This document shows positions 2,823 to 62,651 of a stretch of DNA of 64,000 bases, piece by piece. Source of the DNA: Bacteroidales bacterium (GTDB lineage Bacteria; Bacteroidota; Bacteroidia; Bacteroidales; UBA932). The notes under the pieces are model-generated. The model made no database searches. It was not told where the DNA came from and saw only the letters and a list, made by a program, of their open reading frames with translations. Position numbers and translations under genes: made by a program. Each line of letters starts with the position of its first letter. Position 1 is the first letter of the stretch. The stretch covers positions 62,001 to 126,000 of the forward strand of contig JAFROX010000006.1 of assembly GCA_017429475.1 (NCBI GenBank), given 5' to 3'.

Positions 2823-5009
2823 ATGGCAGATTCTACAAGATTCAGGGCTATAGAACAGATGCAGACCCGTGCATCTGTTGAGTTCAAGCCCAGCGACAGG
2901 CAGATTTCGGAATATTTTGGAATAGACGTGTTCGGCAAGGAGCAGATGCGCGAGTATCTGTCGAAGGATGCGTTTGCTAGCGTGATGGAAGCAATTGAGG
3001 GAGGCAAGCGCATCGACCGCAAGATTGCCGACCAGGTCGCAGCGGGTATGAAGATGTGGGCCATTTCGCGCGGCGCCACACATTATACCCACTGGTTCCA
3101 GCCTCTGAACGAATCTACCGCAGAGAAGCACGACGCATTCTTGGAGCCTCTGCCCGGCGGCAAGTCTTTCGAATCTTTCAGCGGTAATGTGCTCTCGCAG
3201 CAGGAGCCCGACGCCAGCTCTTTCCCGAGCGGCGGCATCCGCAACACCTTCGAGGCCCGCGGATACAGCGCCTGGGACCCTTCTTCTCCCACCTTCGTGA
3301 TCGACAAGACCCTCTGCATCCCCAGCATCTTCGTGGCGTATACCGGCGAGGCCCTCGACTTCAAGGCTCCGCTGCTGAGGGCGATGGCAGCAGTCGACAA
3401 AGCAGCCGTGGAGGTATGCAAGCTGTTCGACAAGGAGATTGACAGGGTCATCACCAATCTCGGATGGGAGCAGGAATACTTCCTGGTGGACGAGGACCTC
3501 TTCAATTCCCGGGCCGACCTACAGCAGACAGGCCGTACGCTTATGGGCCATCCCGCAGCCAAGGATCAGCAGCTCGAGGACCACTACTGGGGCGCGATTC
3601 CCAAGAGGGTGGAGAGCTTTATGAAGGAATTCGAGGAGCAGGCCTACAAGCTCGGCATTCCTCTCAAGACCAGGCACAATGAGGTGGCTCCCAACCAGTT
3701 CGAGTGCGCTACGGTCTACGAAGAGGCCAATGTGGCCGCCGACCACAACATCCTCCTGATGACCATAATGAACAAGGTGGCACCCAAGCATCACCTCAAA
3801 GTCATATTCCACGAAAAACCCTTCCAGGGCGTGAACGGCAGCGGCAAGCACTGCAACTGGTCACTATCCACCAACACCGGGGTGAATCTGCTGGCTCCCG
3901 CCCGCAACCCGAAGGGCAATATGCTGTTCCTGACGTTTTTCGTATGCACCCTGATGGCTGCCGAGAAATACGGCACCCTGCTGATGTCTTCCATCGCGTC
4001 GGCCACCAATGCGCACCGTCTCGGCGGCAACGAGGCCCCGCCTTCAGTCCTTTCGGTGTTCTGCGGCAGCACTATGACCGCTATGCTGAACGACATCGAG
4101 AAGAGCGCGGCCAGCAAGTTCACCCCCGAAGGCAAGACTGCCATCAAACTGAACATCGGCAAGATTCCCGAGATTATGCTCGACAACACCGACCGCAACC
4201 GAACTTCGCCCTTTGCCTTCACCGGCAACCGTTTCGAGTTCCGCGCCACCGGTTCGTCGGCCAACTGCTCGATGCCGATCATCGTGATCGACACTGCGGT
4301 GGCAGAGCAGCTCGATGCTTTCAGAGTTGAGGTGGAGAAGCTTGTGGCCAAGGGAATGAAGAAGGACGAAGCCATACTCAAGACCATACGCAAGTTCGCC
4401 ATAGCCTCTAAGGACATTCGCTTCGACGGCAACGGATACAGCGAACAGTGGCTCGCCGAGGCCTACAAGCGAGGCCTCAAGGACATCAACTGCGTGACCG
4501 AGGCGTTCAAGGAATATCTCGACGAGAAGAACGTGGCACTCTTTGAAAAATACAAGGTGATGAACCGCAGCGAGATCACCGCCCGCTTCGAAATCAAGGA
4601 GGAAACCTATCTCAAGAAGATTCAGATAGAGTCCAAGGTGCTGGCCGATATGGCGATGAACCACATCATACCTACGGCCATAAAATACCAGAACATCCTC
4701 ATCGAGAACATACGCGGCATCAAAGAATTCTTCCCCGACAAGCTCCAGGAGTATGCCGGGAAGGAGATGGAGGCGCTGGCGCGAATCGCCGAGCTGTCGA
4801 ACATCATCAGCGACACCGTGGACAGGATGACCGTCATCCGCCACGAGGTGAACCGCATCGCCGACATCCCGGAGAGGGCAGGGCAGTACGAGGCCCGCGT
4901 GGTTCCGTTTATGAGCGAACTCAGGCAGTCTATAGACGAGCTGGAGATGATAGTCGACGATTCGCTCTGGCCATTGACAAAATACCGCGAGCTTTTGGCG
5001 GCGCTCTGA
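2823..5009 (+). CDS. glnN: Glutamine synthetase type III, first copy
   Basis: ATP-dependent ligation of ammonia to glutamate in the cytoplasm. The 728-residue length and the sequence assign it to the large GSIII family, not GSI or GSII. Visible family segments are FPSGGIRNTFEARGYSAWDP at about 131, RHNEVAPNQFE at about 283 (metal/glutamate site region) and NRTSPFAFTGNRFEFRATGS at about 458 (ATP/glutamate site). The C-terminal region is a long helical extension typical of GSIII. It is monocistronic with its own promoter, unlike the second copy at 19307-21496 inside the nitrogen operon. The two have near-identical length and share all these motifs but diverge between them, so they are old paralogues rather than a recent duplication. 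Confidence 0.95.
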   Translation: MADSTRFRAIEQMQTRASVEFKPSDRQISEYFGIDVFGKEQMREYLSKDAFASVMEAIEGGKRIDRKIADQVAAGMKMWAISRGATHYTHWFQPLNESTAEKHDAFLEPLPGGKSFESFSGNVLSQQEPDASSFPSGGIRNTFEARGYSAWDPSSPTFVIDKTLCIPSIFVAYTGEALDFKAPLLRAMAAVDKAAVEVCKLFDKEIDRVITNLGWEQEYFLVDEDLFNSRADLQQTGRTLMGHPAAKDQQLEDHYWGAIPKRVESFMKEFEEQAYKLGIPLKTRHNEVAPNQFECATVYEEANVAADHNILLMTIMNKVAPKHHLKVIFHEKPFQGVNGSGKHCNWSLSTNTGVNLLAPARNPKGNMLFLTFFVCTLMAAEKYGTLLMSSIASATNAHRLGGNEAPPSVLSVFCGSTMTAMLNDIEKSAASKFTPEGKTAIKLNIGKIPEIMLDNTDRNRTSPFAFTGNRFEFRATGSSANCSMPIIVIDTAVAEQLDAFRVEVEKLVAKGMKKDEAILKTIRKFAIASKDIRFDGNGYSEQWLAEAYKRGLKDINCVTEAFKEYLDEKNVALFEKYKVMNRSEITARFEIKEETYLKKIQIESKVLADMAMNHIIPTAIKYQNILIENIRGIKEFFPDKLQEYAGKEMEALARIAELSNIISDTVDRMTVIRHEVNRIADIPERAGQYEARVVPFMSELRQSIDELEMIVDDSLWPLTKYRELLAAL

Positions 5010-14654: not shown

Positions 14655-15872
14655 TCAACTGTTGTAGCACGTTTCTCCGTGTTCATAAATGTCCAGTCCC
14701 TCTTCCTCAATACGAGGCTCCACACGTATGCCATGTATCTTGTCCAGCACTTTGAAAGTAATCAGTCCCAACGAAAATGCCCACGCTGCCGTAACGAGGA
14801 CACCCAGTGCCTGAATGCCCAGAAAATGCGCTCCACCACCGTAGAACAGGCCGCCGTCAGTGGCAAACAGGCCAGTGAGGATGGTGCCGAGAATGCCGCA
14901 GGTGCCGTGAACTGAGACTGCTCCGACAGGGTCGTCGATTTTGCAGACTTTGTCGATGAGGGCGACGGAACCGACCATAGCCACGCCGCAGATGGCTCCT
15001 ATGATGGCAGCGCCTCCTATGGAGACCATGTCACAGCCGGCCGTGATTCCTACCAGGCCTGCCAGGATGCCGTTGCATACCAGCGAGAGAGAAGGTTTGC
15101 CGTATGCCAGCCAGGTGAGGAAAAGGACAGAAAGCCCGCCTGTCGCTGCTGCCATATTAGTGGTGCACATAACGTGTGATATGGCTATGGCATTTGCGGA
15201 ACCGTCGGCTGCCAGTTGAGAGCCCGGGTTGAAACCAAACCATCCGAACCAGAGTATGAACACTCCGAGCGCGCCGAATGTCAGGTTGTGGCCGGGAATG
15301 GCGTGCGACTGGCCGTTCTTGGAGTATTTGCCAAGTCTTGGGCCGAGCACCATCGCTCCGGCAAGGGCGATTACGCCTCCGCAGGTGTGGACCACCGTAG
15401 AGCCGGCGAAATCGTGGAACCCCAGCTCGCTGAGCCAGCCGCCTCCCCAGGACCAGTGTCCTTCGATGGGATAGATCAGGACCGAAATGATGATAGAGAT
15501 GAGTATGTACATTGAGAATTTGGTGCGCTCTGCCATGCCGCCGGAAACGATCGTCGCCGCAGTGGCGCAGAATACTGTCTGAAATATCAGCGTGCATTCG
15601 GCCGGAATGTTGGAATCGCCGATGAATTTCCAGTCGAAAAGGTGAAGGCCTCCTATGAAGCCGTTGCCGCTGCTGTGCATAAGACCGAAACCTATCATCC
15701 AGAACAGGAACGAGCCTATCATAAAGTCGGCAAAGTTTTTCATCAATATGTTGGCGGTATTCTTCGAACGTGTGAAACCGGCTTCAACAAGGGCGAATCC
15801 CGGTTGCATGAAGAAAACTAGCATAGCTGCAATCAAAACCCAAGCAGTGTCAAGTCCATTTATTGTTGTCAT
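14655..15872 (-). CDS. amtB: Ammonium transporter
   Basis: Inner-membrane Amt/Rh channel for ammonium, 405 residues, eleven predicted helices. Family segments such as FFMQPGFALVEAGFTRSKNT near the N terminus (the first helices) and the DFAGSTVVHTCGGVIALAGA signature at about 150-169 are clear. The C-terminal cytoplasmic tail that transmits PII control is present (KIHGIRVEPRIEEEGLDIYE). It is the second gene of the glnK-amtB unit, 21 nt after glnK, and so depends on the promoter and leader terminator at 16263-16481. Confidence 0.95.
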   Translation of the reverse strand: MTTINGLDTAWVLIAAMLVFFMQPGFALVEAGFTRSKNTANILMKNFADFMIGSFLFWMIGFGLMHSSGNGFIGGLHLFDWKFIGDSNIPAECTLIFQTVFCATAATIVSGGMAERTKFSMYILISIIISVLIYPIEGHWSWGGGWLSELGFHDFAGSTVVHTCGGVIALAGAMVLGPRLGKYSKNGQSHAIPGHNLTFGALGVFILWFGWFGFNPGSQLAADGSANAIAISHVMCTTNMAAATGGLSVLFLTWLAYGKPSLSLVCNGILAGLVGITAGCDMVSIGGAAIIGAICGVAMVGSVALIDKVCKIDDPVGAVSVHGTCGILGTILTGLFATDGGLFYGGGAHFLGIQALGVLVTAAWAFSLGLITFKVLDKIHGIRVEPRIEEEGLDIYEHGETCYNS

Positions 15873-15893
15873 AGCTGTAATCGTTTAAAGGTT

Positions 15894-16241
15894 CTACTTC
15901 TTGTCTGCCAGTACGGTGTCCCCGTGTTCGCCTGTGCGTATAGACCAGGTGTCGTCTACCGGACTGACGAATATTCTGCCATCTCCCACGCTGCCGGTGC
16001 GGGCAGCGCCCATTATTGCGTCGATTGCCGGCTGGACGAACTGGTCTCTGCAGATGATGGTTATCTCGATGCGGGAGATGATGTCTGTGCTGTACATCAC
16101 TCCTCGGTAGATTCTGTCCTCGCGGTCCTGGCCTATGGCCTTGACTTCCGCATAGGAAAACCAGTTGATGTCGGCCTCGAACAGAGCTTCCTTGACATCG
16201 TCGAAACGGGTCTTCCTGATAATGGCTTCAATTTTCTTCAT
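15894..16241 (-). CDS. glnK: PII signal-transduction protein
   Basis: Trimeric sensor of 2-oxoglutarate and ATP/ADP that plugs AmtB when nitrogen is plentiful. It has 115 residues. The T-loop reads DRIYRGVMYSTD, and Tyr50 corresponds to the Tyr51 that is uridylylated in proteobacteria; whether that happens here is unknown. The B-loop TGSVGDGRIFV at about 82-92 binds nucleotide, and RTGE near the C terminus is conserved. Linkage to amtB favours the GlnK type over GlnB. Expression is probably attenuated by the upstream Gln-rich leader and terminator. Confidence 0.93.
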   Translation of the reverse strand: MKKIEAIIRKTRFDDVKEALFEADINWFSYAEVKAIGQDREDRIYRGVMYSTDIISRIEITIICRDQFVQPAIDAIMGAARTGSVGDGRIFVSPVDDTWSIRTGEHGDTVLADKK

Positions 16242-16262
16242 TGGTTAGTAGTATTTGTTAAT

Positions 16263-16296
16263 AAAAAAAAGACCGGCCTCGGTTGAGACCAGTCTT
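16263..16296 (-). terminator. Intrinsic terminator in the glnK-amtB leader
   Basis: On the minus strand AAGACTGGTCTC (16296-16285), a 4-nt loop, and GAGGCCGGTCTT (16280-16269) form a 12-bp stem with two G-U pairs, followed directly by a run of Ts (16270-16263). It lies between the leader peptide stop codon (16322) and the glnK start (16241), so it would stop transcription before the structural genes. An alternative partner for its 5' arm is GGGCCAG in the leader ORF (16343-16337), which could form an antiterminator. Confidence 0.85.
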
Positions 16297-16321
16297 CGTG
16301 ATTAAGCTTTATTATGTCAGA

Positions 16322-16426
16322 TTATTGTCTTTCCTGCTGGCCCAAAGGAGTGACTGTCCGAACCTGATTCTGATTCTGACGCTGGCAGTTCTGATTGCCG
16401 AAGTGGATCATCAAACCTTTGGACAT
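16322..16426 (-). CDS. Gln/Asn-rich leader peptide of glnK-amtB (34 aa)
   Basis: A 34-codon open frame starting with ATG about 17 nt after the predicted transcription start and ending with TAA 25 nt before the terminator hairpin. It contains eight glutamine and four asparagine codons, with the densest run NQNCQRQNQNQ at residues 11-21 and a second cluster QQERQ at the end. Such composition, a consensus promoter just upstream and an intrinsic terminator just downstream are the marks of a ribosome-mediated transcription attenuator, as in the classical amino-acid leader peptides. The inferred role is to sense charged tRNA-Gln: stalling at residues 12-21 would free GGGCCAG (codons 28-30) to pair with the terminator's 5' arm and let transcription continue. 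I know of no described homologue. Confidence 0.75.
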   Translation of the reverse strand: MSKGLMIHFGNQNCQRQNQNQVRTVTPLGQQERQ

Positions 16427-16449
16427 GTTTGTGTTTTCTATTTTCGTGG

Positions 16450-16481
16450 CAAAGATATGAAATGGATATCTATTTGACAAA
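16450..16481 (-). promoter_or_regulatory. Promoter of the glnK-amtB unit
   Basis: On the minus strand TTTG (16481-16478), a 20-nt spacer and TATCTTTG (16457-16450) match the Bacteroidota consensus exactly. The -33 box lies inside the palindrome TATTTGACAAATA (16471-16483), so a bound regulator would compete with RNA polymerase. Confidence 0.85.
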
Positions 16482-16510
16482 TATTTTGCGAATTAATTGT
16501 CAAATTGACA
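16471..16510. promoter_or_regulatory. Candidate Lrp-type operators at the glnK promoter
   Basis: Two palindromes lie here: TATTTG-A-CAAATA (16471-16483), covering the glnK -33 box, and TGTCA-AAT-TGACA (16498-16510). Related palindromes occur in the promoter region of the lrp gene. The adjacent lrp product is the obvious candidate ligand, but this is inferred from position and motif similarity. Confidence 0.45.
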
Positions 16511-16522
16511 GGGATACTATAT

Positions 16523-16539
16523 ATAATAAGATAAAATGT
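16523..16539. repeat. 17-nt direct repeat, copy 1
   Basis: ATAATAAGATAAAATGT occurs here, reaching the last base of the lrp stop codon, and again exactly at 17209-17225 in the dapF promoter spacer. The two copies flank the lrp coding region. Confidence 0.9.
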
Positions 16540-17006
16540 TAATCGTCAATCGGGATGGACCGTTTGATCCGCTGGTCGAGTGACGTGAGAGTCTCTGTGT
16601 TGATGACGCCGGGGATTTCCTGGATACGGCCGTTCAGCAGTTCCATCAGGTGGTTGGCGTCGTGGGCGTATAGCTTGATGAGGATTGTGTACGCTCCCAG
16701 AGTGAACTGTGATTCCACGATCTCGGGAATCTTCTCGAGTTCTGAAACGACGCTGTTGTACAGCGAGCCCTTCTCGAGGGTGATTCCGACATAAACGCAC
16801 ATGTTGAATCCGAGTTTCTGGGGGTTGACGTGGAATCCGGAATTCTTGATAACGCCTATATCGGTCATTCTCTGCACCCTCTGGTGGACCGAAGTGCGCG
16901 ATATGCCGACCTGTTCGGCTACATCGCGGAAAGGAATGCGTGCGTTTAGCGTAATAATCTTGAGGATTTTGCGATCGATTGAGTCAGTCAGTTCGTTGGT
17001 GTTCAT
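16539..17006 (-). CDS. Lrp/AsnC-family transcriptional regulator
   Basis: DNA-binding feast/famine regulator of 155 residues. The N-terminal winged helix-turn-helix covers about residues 8-65 (core FRDVAEQVGISRTSVHQRVQ), and the C-terminal RAM ligand-binding domain covers about 70-150 (ending VINTETLTSLDQRIKRSIPI). Family members bind amino acids and form octamers that wrap DNA. It lies between the glnK-amtB unit and the divergent dapF-to-pyrG operon, and palindromes of the TGACAAA/TTGTCA type occur at both of its ends. Control of nitrogen assimilation and of its own gene is therefore likely but unproven. The effector cannot be deduced. Confidence 0.9.
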   Translation of the reverse strand: MNTNELTDSIDRKILKIITLNARIPFRDVAEQVGISRTSVHQRVQRMTDIGVIKNSGFHVNPQKLGFNMCVYVGITLEKGSLYNSVVSELEKIPEIVESQFTLGAYTILIKLYAHDANHLMELLNGRIQEIPGVINTETLTSLDQRIKRSIPIDD

Positions 17007-17049
17007 AGGTGGTCAAAATTGTTGCTGTAGTAAAGTTAATAAATATTCT

Positions 17050-17100
17050 GACAAATTGTCCAAATTTTATGTAAATATTATGACAAATGACAATTTTTAA
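17050..17100. promoter_or_regulatory. Candidate operators between lrp and dapF
   Basis: GACAA-A-TTGTC (17050-17060) is a perfect palindrome about 45 nt upstream of the lrp start, and TGACAAATGACAATTTTTAA (17081-17100) holds two tandem TGACA half-sites. The latter shares 15 of 16 bases (17085-17100) with a site upstream of the first glnN (2727-2742). They probably belong to one regulator, most likely the adjacent Lrp protein. The rest of the 247-nt lrp-dapF gap is AT-rich, with no gene seen. Confidence 0.45.
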
Positions 17101-17203
17101 GTTCATTTGGGCTCTAAAATGAACATATTGCACGATAATTTAAAATTCCTAAAACAAAAAGTTGGCTTAATGGGTAATTGTAAAGACAAAAAGTCAAAGA
17201 AAA

Positions 17204-17235
17204 TATTGATAATAAGATAAAATGTCATAACTTTG
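17204..17235 (+). promoter_or_regulatory. Promoter of the dapF-to-pyrG operon
   Basis: TATTG (17204-17208), a 19-nt spacer and TAACTTTG (17228-17235) match the Bacteroidota promoter. The start is expected about 10 nt before the ATG at 17254. The spacer holds the second copy of the 17-nt repeat. Confidence 0.7.
17209..17225. repeat. 17-nt direct repeat, copy 2, in the dapF promoter spacer
   Basis: Exact second copy of the sequence at 16523-16539. It fills nearly the whole spacer between the -33 and -7 boxes of the dapF promoter, so a protein recognising it would affect that promoter directly. Confidence 0.9.
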
Positions 17236-17253
17236 CGGCAAAGTTCGACCACA

Positions 17254-18063
17254 ATGATGCGCACGATCCACTTCACAAAAATGCATGCAGCCGGGAACGA
17301 CTACATCTACGTCTATGGCCAGAACTTTAAGGCCAGTGATGCCGTCCGGCAAGCTCCGACCTGGTGCGACAGGCACAAAGGAATAGGAGCTGACGGGATC
17401 GTCCTGATCAATCCCTCCCACAAGGCCGATTTCAAAATGGAGATGTTCAATGCCGACGGCTCCCAAGGCATGATGTGCGGCAATGCAGCCCGCTGTATCG
17501 GCAGCTTTGTTGCCAGCCGGGGCTATGCAAAGGATTTCGATATCACTTTGGAAACAGCATCAGGCATAAAGCTTCTTCATATTGACGATGCCACCGGAAA
17601 TATCTCCGTCAATATGGGACAACCTTCTTTCTCTGTCCCTTCTCAATTCCGTCCGCGCAAGGAGGATGTGATACCCGTATCACTTCGCGGAAACTTTGTT
17701 TCTATGGGCAATCCTCACTACGTAATATTTGTTGAGGATATCGAGGCCGTCAATCTGGAGGTGACAGGAATGATGCTGGAGCACGCGGCCTGCTTTCCTG
17801 CGGCAGCAAACATTGAGTTTGCCCAGCTGCTCGGCGATGATTGCATCCGGATGAGAGTATGGGAGAGGGGCAGTGGAGTTACTATGGCCTGCGGCACGGG
17901 AGCTTGCGCAACGGCAGTGGCAGCCATTTCCCGATTTGCCCTGAACCGCGAGCAGACGATTATTATGGACGGAGGAAGCGTCAAGGTGAGCTGGGACGGA
18001 GATGAAGTCCTGCTGACAGGGGACGCAGTAGAAGTTTATAACGGTAAAATTGATATTGAGTGA
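17254..18063 (+). CDS. dapF: Diaminopimelate epimerase
   Basis: Converts LL- to meso-diaminopimelate for lysine and peptidoglycan, a PLP-independent two-base epimerase. The 269-residue protein starts at ATG 17254 (a second ATG follows at once). The two catalytic cysteines are visible, one in MMCGNAARC at about 76 and the other in MACGTGACATA at about 214; MHAAGNDYIYV near the N terminus is diagnostic. It is the first gene of the 21 kb run and overlaps the dapL start by 1 nt, so the two lysine-pathway genes are translationally coupled. Confidence 0.95.
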   Translation: MMRTIHFTKMHAAGNDYIYVYGQNFKASDAVRQAPTWCDRHKGIGADGIVLINPSHKADFKMEMFNADGSQGMMCGNAARCIGSFVASRGYAKDFDITLETASGIKLLHIDDATGNISVNMGQPSFSVPSQFRPRKEDVIPVSLRGNFVSMGNPHYVIFVEDIEAVNLEVTGMMLEHAACFPAAANIEFAQLLGDDCIRMRVWERGSGVTMACGTGACATAVAAISRFALNREQTIIMDGGSVKVSWDGDEVLLTGDAVEVYNGKIDIE

Positions 18064-61625: not shown

Positions 61626-62651
61626 CTATTTCTTGGCGGCAGTCCTGATGTAGAAGACAAGAGGGCAGTAGGCGGGAATCTCGCCGCTGCCTTCGTCTTT
61701 ATATCCGAATCCTGAAGAGAAGAATACGACGCCTTCCTCTCCGTATTTGAATTCAGACATCGCCCTTGCGAATCCATCCACCAGCGAGTTTGTAGATATG
61801 GACTCTTCAGGATCTTTCTTGTAAGTGACAGCCAGGGCATTGTATTGATTGCCCTTGTTGTATCGCCTGTACATCCTCGCAGTGTCGGCTACATTTGTGT
61901 CGAACAGGAAATTGTCGGTTATTCCATCGATGATGTGGCCTGAATAGTACACGTCAACAGACGTGCCTTCAAAAATAGTGTCTCCTTCTGCGGGGTTCTC
62001 TTTCAGTTTCTTGAAATAGTATCCTCTCATCGTGGAGTCCAGGCCGTTCCAGTATTTCTCGGCATACGCTTCGAGAAGGTCGATTTCATATTGAGTGATA
62101 TCGTTTACCGTCTTCTCGAGGGAAATTTCGTAGATGGTGTTTTCGCTGAATTCCCTGATGTTGGTTTGTGTGATGGTGTTTTGGGTTTTGGGCAATGTGA
62201 TTGCCGACATTTCCGGGGAAACGATAGCCTTAATCTTGCCGCCGGCCTTCATCATCGACAGCAGTTCGCGGACTCCGTCGTTTTCGGTATAATTGGCTAT
62301 CCTCCATATTTCAGGGCACCAGTAGAGGGTGTCGCTGTATGTTCCGAGATTTCTCTTGGCCACCTCGGGATCCGAAGTCTTTTTATATGTACCGTCAAGG
62401 CTTCTGGTCGAATAGTGCACGAAGCAGTATGTGGAATCCTTCACCTTGTCACCGGTCCCCGGAGTCTCTTCGAGGATATATAATCCGGATTCGGTCAGGG
62501 CTACGTAGTTCGTGCCGTAGTTGACTCTTACCCAGGCATCCCTGACTGTTTTCTGCTGGCTGGTGGAATCATCGACGGGAGTAACCTCGCACGATGCGAG
62601 CAGTGCAGCAAGGACTGCTCCGATGAGTGTGAAGGACAAGGACTTCTTCAT
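61626..62651 (-). CDS. FKBP-like lipoprotein, possible peptidyl-prolyl isomerase
   Basis: Predicted outer-membrane or periplasmic lipoprotein of 341 residues. I choose ATG 62651 (MKKSLSFTLIGAVLAALLAS, then Cys), 1 nt after the stop of the preceding gene; the frame is open to 62672 but overlaps that gene. The lipobox is LLASC. A C-terminal FKBP-like domain (about 225-340; TSVDVYYSGHIIDG, and YCPLVFYIRTA at the end) is preceded by an unassigned domain with another degenerate FKBP-like look. Activity is uncertain because several FKBP active-site aromatics are not evident. Confidence 0.7.
   Translation of the reverse strand: MKKSLSFTLIGAVLAALLASCEVTPVDDSTSQQKTVRDAWVRVNYGTNYVALTESGLYILEETPGTGDKVKDSTYCFVHYSTRSLDGTYKKTSDPEVAKRNLGTYSDTLYWCPEIWRIANYTENDGVRELLSMMKAGGKIKAIVSPEMSAITLPKTQNTITQTNIREFSENTIYEISLEKTVNDITQYEIDLLEAYAEKYWNGLDSTMRGYYFKKLKENPAEGDTIFEGTSVDVYYSGHIIDGITDNFLFDTNVADTARMYRRYNKGNQYNALAVTYKKDPEESISTNSLVDGFARAMSEFKYGEEGVVFFSSGFGYKDEGSGEIPAYCPLVFYIRTAAKK

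Follow-up and report, generated by a model that had tools for sequence, protein, structure and literature searches.

Ribosome-mediated transcription attenuation is known from the trp, his, leu, ilv, thr and phe operons, and the mycobacterial poly-Cys open reading frames (ORFs) are cysteine upstream ORF (uORF) attenuators. In the T-box leaders for glutamine (Gln) and asparagine (Asn) of Firmicutes, uncharged tRNA binds the RNA directly. In Proteobacteria, glnK-amtB is controlled by NtrBC and sigma-54 and is induced on nitrogen limitation. To our knowledge, the control of ammonium assimilation in Bacteroidota is poorly known. Here we describe the leader region of glnK-amtB in a 64-kb stretch of DNA from a Bacteroidales bacterium (positions 62,001 to 126,000 of contig JAFROX010000006.1, in the following the window), where all parts of the leader locus are read on the minus strand. 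We consider it likely, with a probability of roughly 0.82, that this element is a ribosome-mediated transcription attenuator reading the charging of tRNA-Gln and/or tRNA-Asn. The leader would probably let the cell turn on the downstream genes when Gln or Asn run short.

Like the classic attenuators, the locus combines a short ORF rich in the regulated amino acid with protector, antiterminator and terminator stems, the terminator lying before the structural genes. Unlike them, leaders of the window type use both Gln and Asn codons and occur in Bacteroidales, and the genes behind them, spread over several loci, serve ammonium uptake or encode PII, glutamine synthetase and glutamine amidotransferases. 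The T-box leaders also sense tRNA charging before amino acid genes, but they do so without a leader peptide, and NtrBC/sigma-54 acts on the same operon by protein-based promoter control, in contrast to the transcript attenuation proposed here. With cysteine uORF attenuators the locus shares a uORF of control codons ahead of a gene for the corresponding amino acid, whereas the amino acid, the phylum and the targets differ. The class of mechanism is already known; amide codons and an ammonium/glutamine regulon in Bacteroidales appear to be new. A leuA attenuator is described in PMC2659441, and passages of PMC8632094 present the cysS motif of Rhodobacterales as a cysteine uORF attenuator and the glutamine riboswitch and gltD motif as RNAs whose aptamer senses free glutamine. 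The latter two are likewise glutamine-linked cis-acting RNA control of nitrogen genes; the present locus has control codons instead and gave no such Rfam match. Small ORFs in 5′ untranslated regions of B. thetaiotaomicron resemble leader peptides (passages of PMC7366714). In Prevotella ruminicola the amtB, glnK and asnB transcripts shift 38- to 69-fold with ammonium, and the passages of that paper (PMC5552732) are inconsistent on the direction of the effect and name no transcription regulator. Among the open-access papers listed, none described a Gln or Asn leader peptide for nitrogen genes in its title or the start of its abstract; most subscription papers lie outside this scope, among them the survey of attenuation by Lopatovskaya 2010, which PMC4833913 cites.

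The leader is preceded by a Bacteroidetes-type promoter (16450–16481), read directly as TTTG at 16481–16478, a 20-nucleotide (nt) spacer and TATCTTTG at 16457–16450. We take TTTG-20-TATCTTTG to be a match to the Bacteroidetes promoter consensus and infer that transcription starts downstream of it. The leader ORF, MSKGLMIHFGNQNCQRQNQNQVRTVTPLGQQERQ (16322–16426, from the ORF list), has its ATG at 16426 and 34 codons, 8 for Gln and 4 for Asn, and related, diverged frames occur in relatives. Its putative control codons are codons 11–21 (NQNCQRQNQNQ, 16364–16396), a Gln/Asn run common to the leader families. Of the 1157 short ORFs of the window (12–60 amino acids), only the leader, with 9, reaches 6 or more Gln or Asn within 12 residues, and a terminator-like hairpin follows 10 of the 1157. 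The terminator stem of the leader (16297–16268) begins 24 nt past the leader stop and comprises 13 base pairs (bp) and a 4-nt loop, with a T-run to 16263. Its 5′ arm, region 3 (16285–16297), includes CTGGTCT at 16292–16286; region 4 (16263–16280) consists of the 3′ arm (16280–16268) and the T-run (16270–16263). Both regions were assigned from the fold and from covariation. The genes behind the terminator, which would be the first and second controlled genes, are glnK, encoding PII (15894–16241, Pfam PF00543), and the ammonium transporter gene amtB (14655–15872, Pfam PF00909). An Rfam scan of 15800–17300 gave a chance-level L20_leader (E 0.9) as its sole match at E ≤ 1, and the glutamine riboswitch had no match at the leader. 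An earlier note on this DNA had claimed the promoter, the 34-codon Gln/Asn-rich frame densest at codons 11–21 and glnK-amtB as the downstream genes, and we read all three in the same way. Its hairpin with T-run also stands, with a stem of 13 rather than 12 bp at a distance of 24 rather than 25 nt. The complementarity that it had reported between GGGCCAG (16343–16337) and CTGGTCT is there as well, with 7 bp including two G-U pairs.

The leader RNA folded more stably than every one of 200 dinucleotide shuffles (z −4.4). An additional pairing was seen between region 1, GTCCAAAGG (16416–16424, in the first codons), and CCTTTGGGC (16348–16340), which overlaps GGGCCAG and forms region 2 with it (16337–16348). 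This predicted stem corresponds to the protector stem (“1:2”) known from classic attenuators. The entire 1:2 duplex amounts to −24.3 kcal/mol in the window, with p 0.02 when the window is taken alone (dinucleotide shuffles, start of region 1 extended upstream). In the mechanism that we propose, a ribosome translating the leader peptide would closely follow RNA polymerase. A shortage of charged tRNA-Gln and/or tRNA-Asn would stall this ribosome in the Gln/Asn run; region 2 (GGGCCAG), about 20 nt further on, could then base-pair with region 3, the terminator's 5′ arm, letting the polymerase continue into glnK-amtB. With ample amide amino acids, the ribosome would reach the stop codon and cover region 2, and the terminator would form; without translation, region 1 would hold region 2 and the terminator would form again. 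Stalling, coupling, termination and the direction of control are all deduced here from the sequence.

To find glnK leaders in relatives, GlnK was searched in the family (199 genomes, 36 with a match), in named genome contigs (the best 80 loci kept), in the window's genus g1 (26 genomes, 14 with a close match) and in the order (393 genomes, 12 at E ≤ 1e-45), and the carrier genera (those of G593, G594 and G595) were searched too. In g1 the leader stands directly before glnK in 6 of the 14 genomes (G000, G014, G079, G187, G202 and G181, the last with the leader and the start of glnK at a contig end), and in G175 one gene lies between leader and glnK. The leader is found directly before glnK in 20 of 21 loci in the genus of G594, where the remaining locus (L166) has it further upstream, in 2 of 6 for the genus of G593 and in 6 of 13 for the genus of G595, of which 61 genomes were sampled; a glnK leader is also present in G596, which belongs to the genus of G595. 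Four Bacteroidales genera carry strongly diverged glnK leaders with a Gln/Asn run, an antiterminator block and a terminator. The leader peptides vary widely between relatives, as seen in MFIGFKNITTVQLNNNQQQNNQNQNNNQVPMVIPFDRSGM, MTANVHIFGILNQQNNNVKSCLAGRIG and MYFNRQNQQNKQQQSQQTPLLMLFSGR; what the diverged leaders have in common is the Gln/Asn run, the RNA block behind it and the terminator. In an alignment of 27 frames (A3), all gaps in the coding part are multiples of three.

Covariation was evaluated in alignment A4 (31 leaders, MAFFT). For the terminator, 97.1% of the alignment cells were paired, compared with at most 57% in slid versions, and 7 of 10 pairs had changes on both sides. All five covariation measures were matched by 0 of 500 shuffles and lay above every slid version. 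The antiterminator helix (columns 72–78, the region 2 strand GGGCCAG in the window, with columns 143–149) was picked on A4 itself, which favours it, and had 86.2% of its cells paired versus at most 41.0% when slid. Its covariation score was matched by 1 of 500 shuffles and its double-change cells by 20 of 500; 10 leaders show an A-U to G-C exchange and 2 a C-G to U-A exchange. The predicted antiterminator, which would be mutually exclusive with the terminator, is in this sense conserved with covariation. In single leaders such as L036 and L137/L167 the antiterminator pairing is weak. We also compared duplex energies in 64 non-redundant leaders (<85% identity) with dinucleotide shuffles. The 2:3 duplex reached p < 0.05 in 28 of the 64 (combined p about 4e-24) and the 1:2 duplex in 22 (combined p about 6e-17), the combined values being optimistic because the leaders are related; the 1:2 result holds for the set and for the window, not for every leader.

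The spacing of these elements was examined with an assumed ribosome footprint of about 15 nt on either side. In 49 of the 64 non-redundant leaders, the end of the Gln/Asn run is followed after 19–31 nt by the start of the antiterminator. A ribosome positioned at the stop codon would cover the whole antiterminator in 40 of the 64 and part of it in 18. The distances needed for a stall to free region 2 and for a ribosome at the stop to cover it fit in most leaders, the folds only partly. With codon 21 in the A site, UUGGGCCAG is free and pairs with CUGGUC-CAA when the polymerase is at the terminator loop.

Several observations weigh against the attenuator as we propose it. For a ribosome stalled at codon 12, 15 or 17, the 5′ arm of the terminator pairs with earlier stretches and not with region 2, and full-length folds with a stalled ribosome still favour the terminator. 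In the window 3:4 (−19.9 kcal/mol) is more stable than 2:3 (about −11 kcal/mol) once the full terminator has been made, so antitermination requires the upstream 2:3 pairing to form first. Region 1 precedes the Gln/Asn codons, and a stalled ribosome would therefore cover it only partly. The window 2:3 duplex alone is not significant (p 0.14), its support coming from the relatives, and 2:3 fails p < 0.05 in 36 of the 64 leaders. Two count measures for the antiterminator are ordinary compared with shuffles (138 and 103 of 500), and in a comparison of region 2/region 3 pairing across families own and foreign partners were not separated. Variant codons in the MFIG class comprise 9 synonymous and 19 nonsynonymous changes. 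Finally, many Bacteroidales glnK loci have no leader.

To search beyond glnK we used covariance models, which hold no information on the downstream gene. The first, built from 29 glnK leaders, had matches at E ≤ 0.01 in 50 of 400 genomes from the genus of G595. Of 61 listed matches 51 were read; 40 of these have a Gln/Asn leader and the other 11 lack one. The 10 unread ones are weak (E 0.0046–0.0099). The genes next to the 40 leaders were glnK (21), glnN (10, assigned by similarity), asnB (5), an outer-membrane-like protein (1) and CP_ATPgrasp_2 (1), and 2 were cut off. A second model (R2, 31 leaders) was run on the 393 order genomes and on 50 selected genomes (all 26 g1 genomes, 21 of 37 in the genus of G594, 2 of 19 in the genus of G593, and G596); counts for the 50 cover the returned loci and secondary matches in the fetched stretches. 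Order-wide, R2 matched at E ≤ 0.01 in 336 of the 393 genomes. Since many of these matches are confined to the model's terminator end, they were used solely when a Gln/Asn ORF was present. Loci L167–L345 yielded 92 distinct leaders with terminators, a count that includes the truncated L310 and both leaders of L249, one of them doubtful. By BLAST against the window proteins, the next ORF was glnK in 40, asnB in 17, glnN in 13, glmS in 5, pyrG in 4, amtB in 2 and purF in 1, with 6 giving no match and 4 cut. Thus, 82 of the 88 leaders with a readable next ORF precede ammonium or glutamine genes, and this matching target metabolism is found together with clustered control codons, a terminator between stop and first gene and, for the set as a whole, a 1:2 stem.

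The window leader is best read as one member of a Gln/Asn attenuation regulon. It seems to us fairly probable that dispersed leader-peptide attenuators reading Gln/Asn tRNA charging form, in some Bacteroidales, a multi-operon nitrogen regulon that replaces an NtrC-like protein. With comparable confidence, this regulon would span ammonium uptake, PII, glutamine synthetase III, asparagine synthase and the amidotransferases PyrG, GlmS and PurF. If true, a Gln/Asn codon-reading regulon would be a concrete sensor in rumen and gut bacteria, ribosome-mediated attenuation would be extended to amide amino acids and ammonium transport, and a single attenuator type would cover many separate operons.

The broader claims of the earlier note can be placed against these data. 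It had stated that orthologous leaders lacking a conserved frame or Gln enrichment would refute it, and had proposed a test for covarying stems; this refuting outcome was not observed, as the frame, the Gln/Asn run, the antiterminator and the terminator are conserved in strongly diverged relatives. Together with fitting distances in most leaders, these features support its interpretation as attenuation. It had described a device of glnK-amtB; the leader is there, and leaders also precede asnB, glnN, amtB, pyrG, glmS and purF, which makes that description too narrow. Its claim of glutamine sensing agrees with the Gln-rich run, but Gln may not be the sole signal, since Asn codons are as common as Gln codons and the signal may be Gln, Asn or both. 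Gln and Asn codons make up 35% of 97 leaders versus 6.7% of ten window genes, with 794 Asn codons (AAT 600, AAC 194) and 582 Gln codons (CAG 547, CAA 35). A real attenuator that mainly reads Asn charging, or a general shortage of amides or amino acids, is a possible though tentative alternative to one reading Gln. In its favour are these counts, the frequency of asnB as a target and the choice of Asn codon. When 88 leaders were compared with their own next genes, AAT made up 540 of 717 leader Asn codons (75%) and 205 of 856 gene Asn codons (AAC 76%), and the AAT share was higher in the leader in 48 of the 52 leaders with more than 2 Asn codons in both. This bias may sharpen stalling, or may simply keep the run unstructured. 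The leaders of G431 and G571 (L306, L307, L248 and L249), which precede glnN, amtB and a unit of outer-membrane protein and glnK, are rich in Asn, lysine and arginine with few Gln, which suggests that control codons differ between lineages. Against a mainly Asn signal, Gln codons are present in all 34 of 34 glnK leaders compared and dominate in the window (8 Gln, 4 Asn), and most targets produce or use glutamine.

A terminator under a metabolite-binding RNA or an RNA-binding protein, with the frame incidental or a small-protein gene, would agree with the strong RNA conservation, and the chance-level Rfam result leaves room for an unknown aptamer. We hold it to be improbable: the Gln/Asn run persists while the surrounding peptide and RNA change, A2–A4 show no conserved aptamer-like core beyond the run and the alternative stems, and the gaps in the 27 aligned frames keep the reading frame. 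Small molecules can be sensed by a leader peptide inside the ribosomal exit tunnel, as with TnaC and SpeFL, yet the peptide outside the run differs greatly between families, and a nascent-chain arrest peptide binding free glutamine is very unlikely. Least credible is a plain terminator of the upstream Lrp/AsnC-type gene with a chance ORF. This gene does end at 16539 on the same strand, but a promoter and an ORF lie between it and the terminator, a run of 9 Gln/Asn in 12 is unique among the window's short ORFs, and the leader-terminator unit recurs at many loci before glnK, asnB, glnN, pyrG, glmS or purF; the comparative data already contradict it.

How often the features of the leader occur elsewhere was assessed in control loci. 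In 164 GlnK-selected loci (some overlapping, 5 with less than 300 nt upstream), the level of at least 6 Gln or Asn in 12 residues was reached by 98 of 14842 short ORFs, and 45 of these, in 43 loci, also had a terminator. In the best 30 AsnB-selected loci (111 of the 393 order genomes had a match; one locus is the window's own), none of 2547 short ORFs had both a Gln/Asn run and a terminator. The idea of asnB leaders throughout the order was rejected on this count. In 27 of 30 order-wide R2 loci, 0 of 1539 short ORFs had both features; the other three were the window and two Asn-rich leaders, and stretches of G431 and G571 were read besides. By these two features (at least 6 Gln or Asn in 12 residues and a terminator), no leader was found in GlnK loci titled Bacteroides, Prevotella, Tannerella or Flavobacteriaceae in the family and named-contig searches, and L105, titled Bacteroidetes bacterium, has two marginal leader matches in one locus.

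In the window itself, a run of genes on the plus strand near glnK-amtB (17254–38251; dapF, dapL, glnN, gltB, gltD, asnB, purF, glmS, carA, carB and pyrG, where the names dapF, dapL, carA and carB were given by eye only) brings together many enzymes that use glutamine. No Gln/Asn leader was found before this run, and the operon of the window's own AsnB is without one. A second glutamine synthetase-like gene (2823–5009, plus strand, 728 amino acids, NCBIfam matches below cut-off) also has no Gln/Asn leader.

The six next ORFs without a match comprise four small outer-membrane-like proteins and one membrane protein (all by eye; for the membrane protein, the genome gave no GlnK match at E ≤ 1e-45) and one CP_ATPgrasp_2. 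The outer-membrane-like protein follows the leader in L200, L301, L306 and L307, and in three of these glnK comes next by coordinates. In L200, where this copy has no Pfam match, no reference nitrogen gene was found within its 4.3 kb. L207 has a Gln/Asn leader and terminator before the circularly permuted ATP-grasp protein, a possible further target. L290 has a glnK-type leader and terminator although its genome, G693, gave no GlnK match at E ≤ 1e-45; the start of the next ORF resembles the AmtB N-terminus by eye, which suggests that a deletion spared only the leader.

Across the GlnK tree, the presence of a leader seems to switch frequently. With 31 of 150 rows labelled as having a leader, 10 label changes were needed, at least 7 by starred branches; the tree has few columns, its bootstrap had not settled, and several of the “none” labels are mistaken or doubtful (a leader is present in L035, the L006 locus is cut off, and in L008, L034, L117 and L166 a leader lies further upstream). 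L116, L117 and L118 have a GlnK 93% identical to that of the window across families f18, f55 and f1, the last being the window's own, and this identity between families suggests horizontal transfer of the operon.
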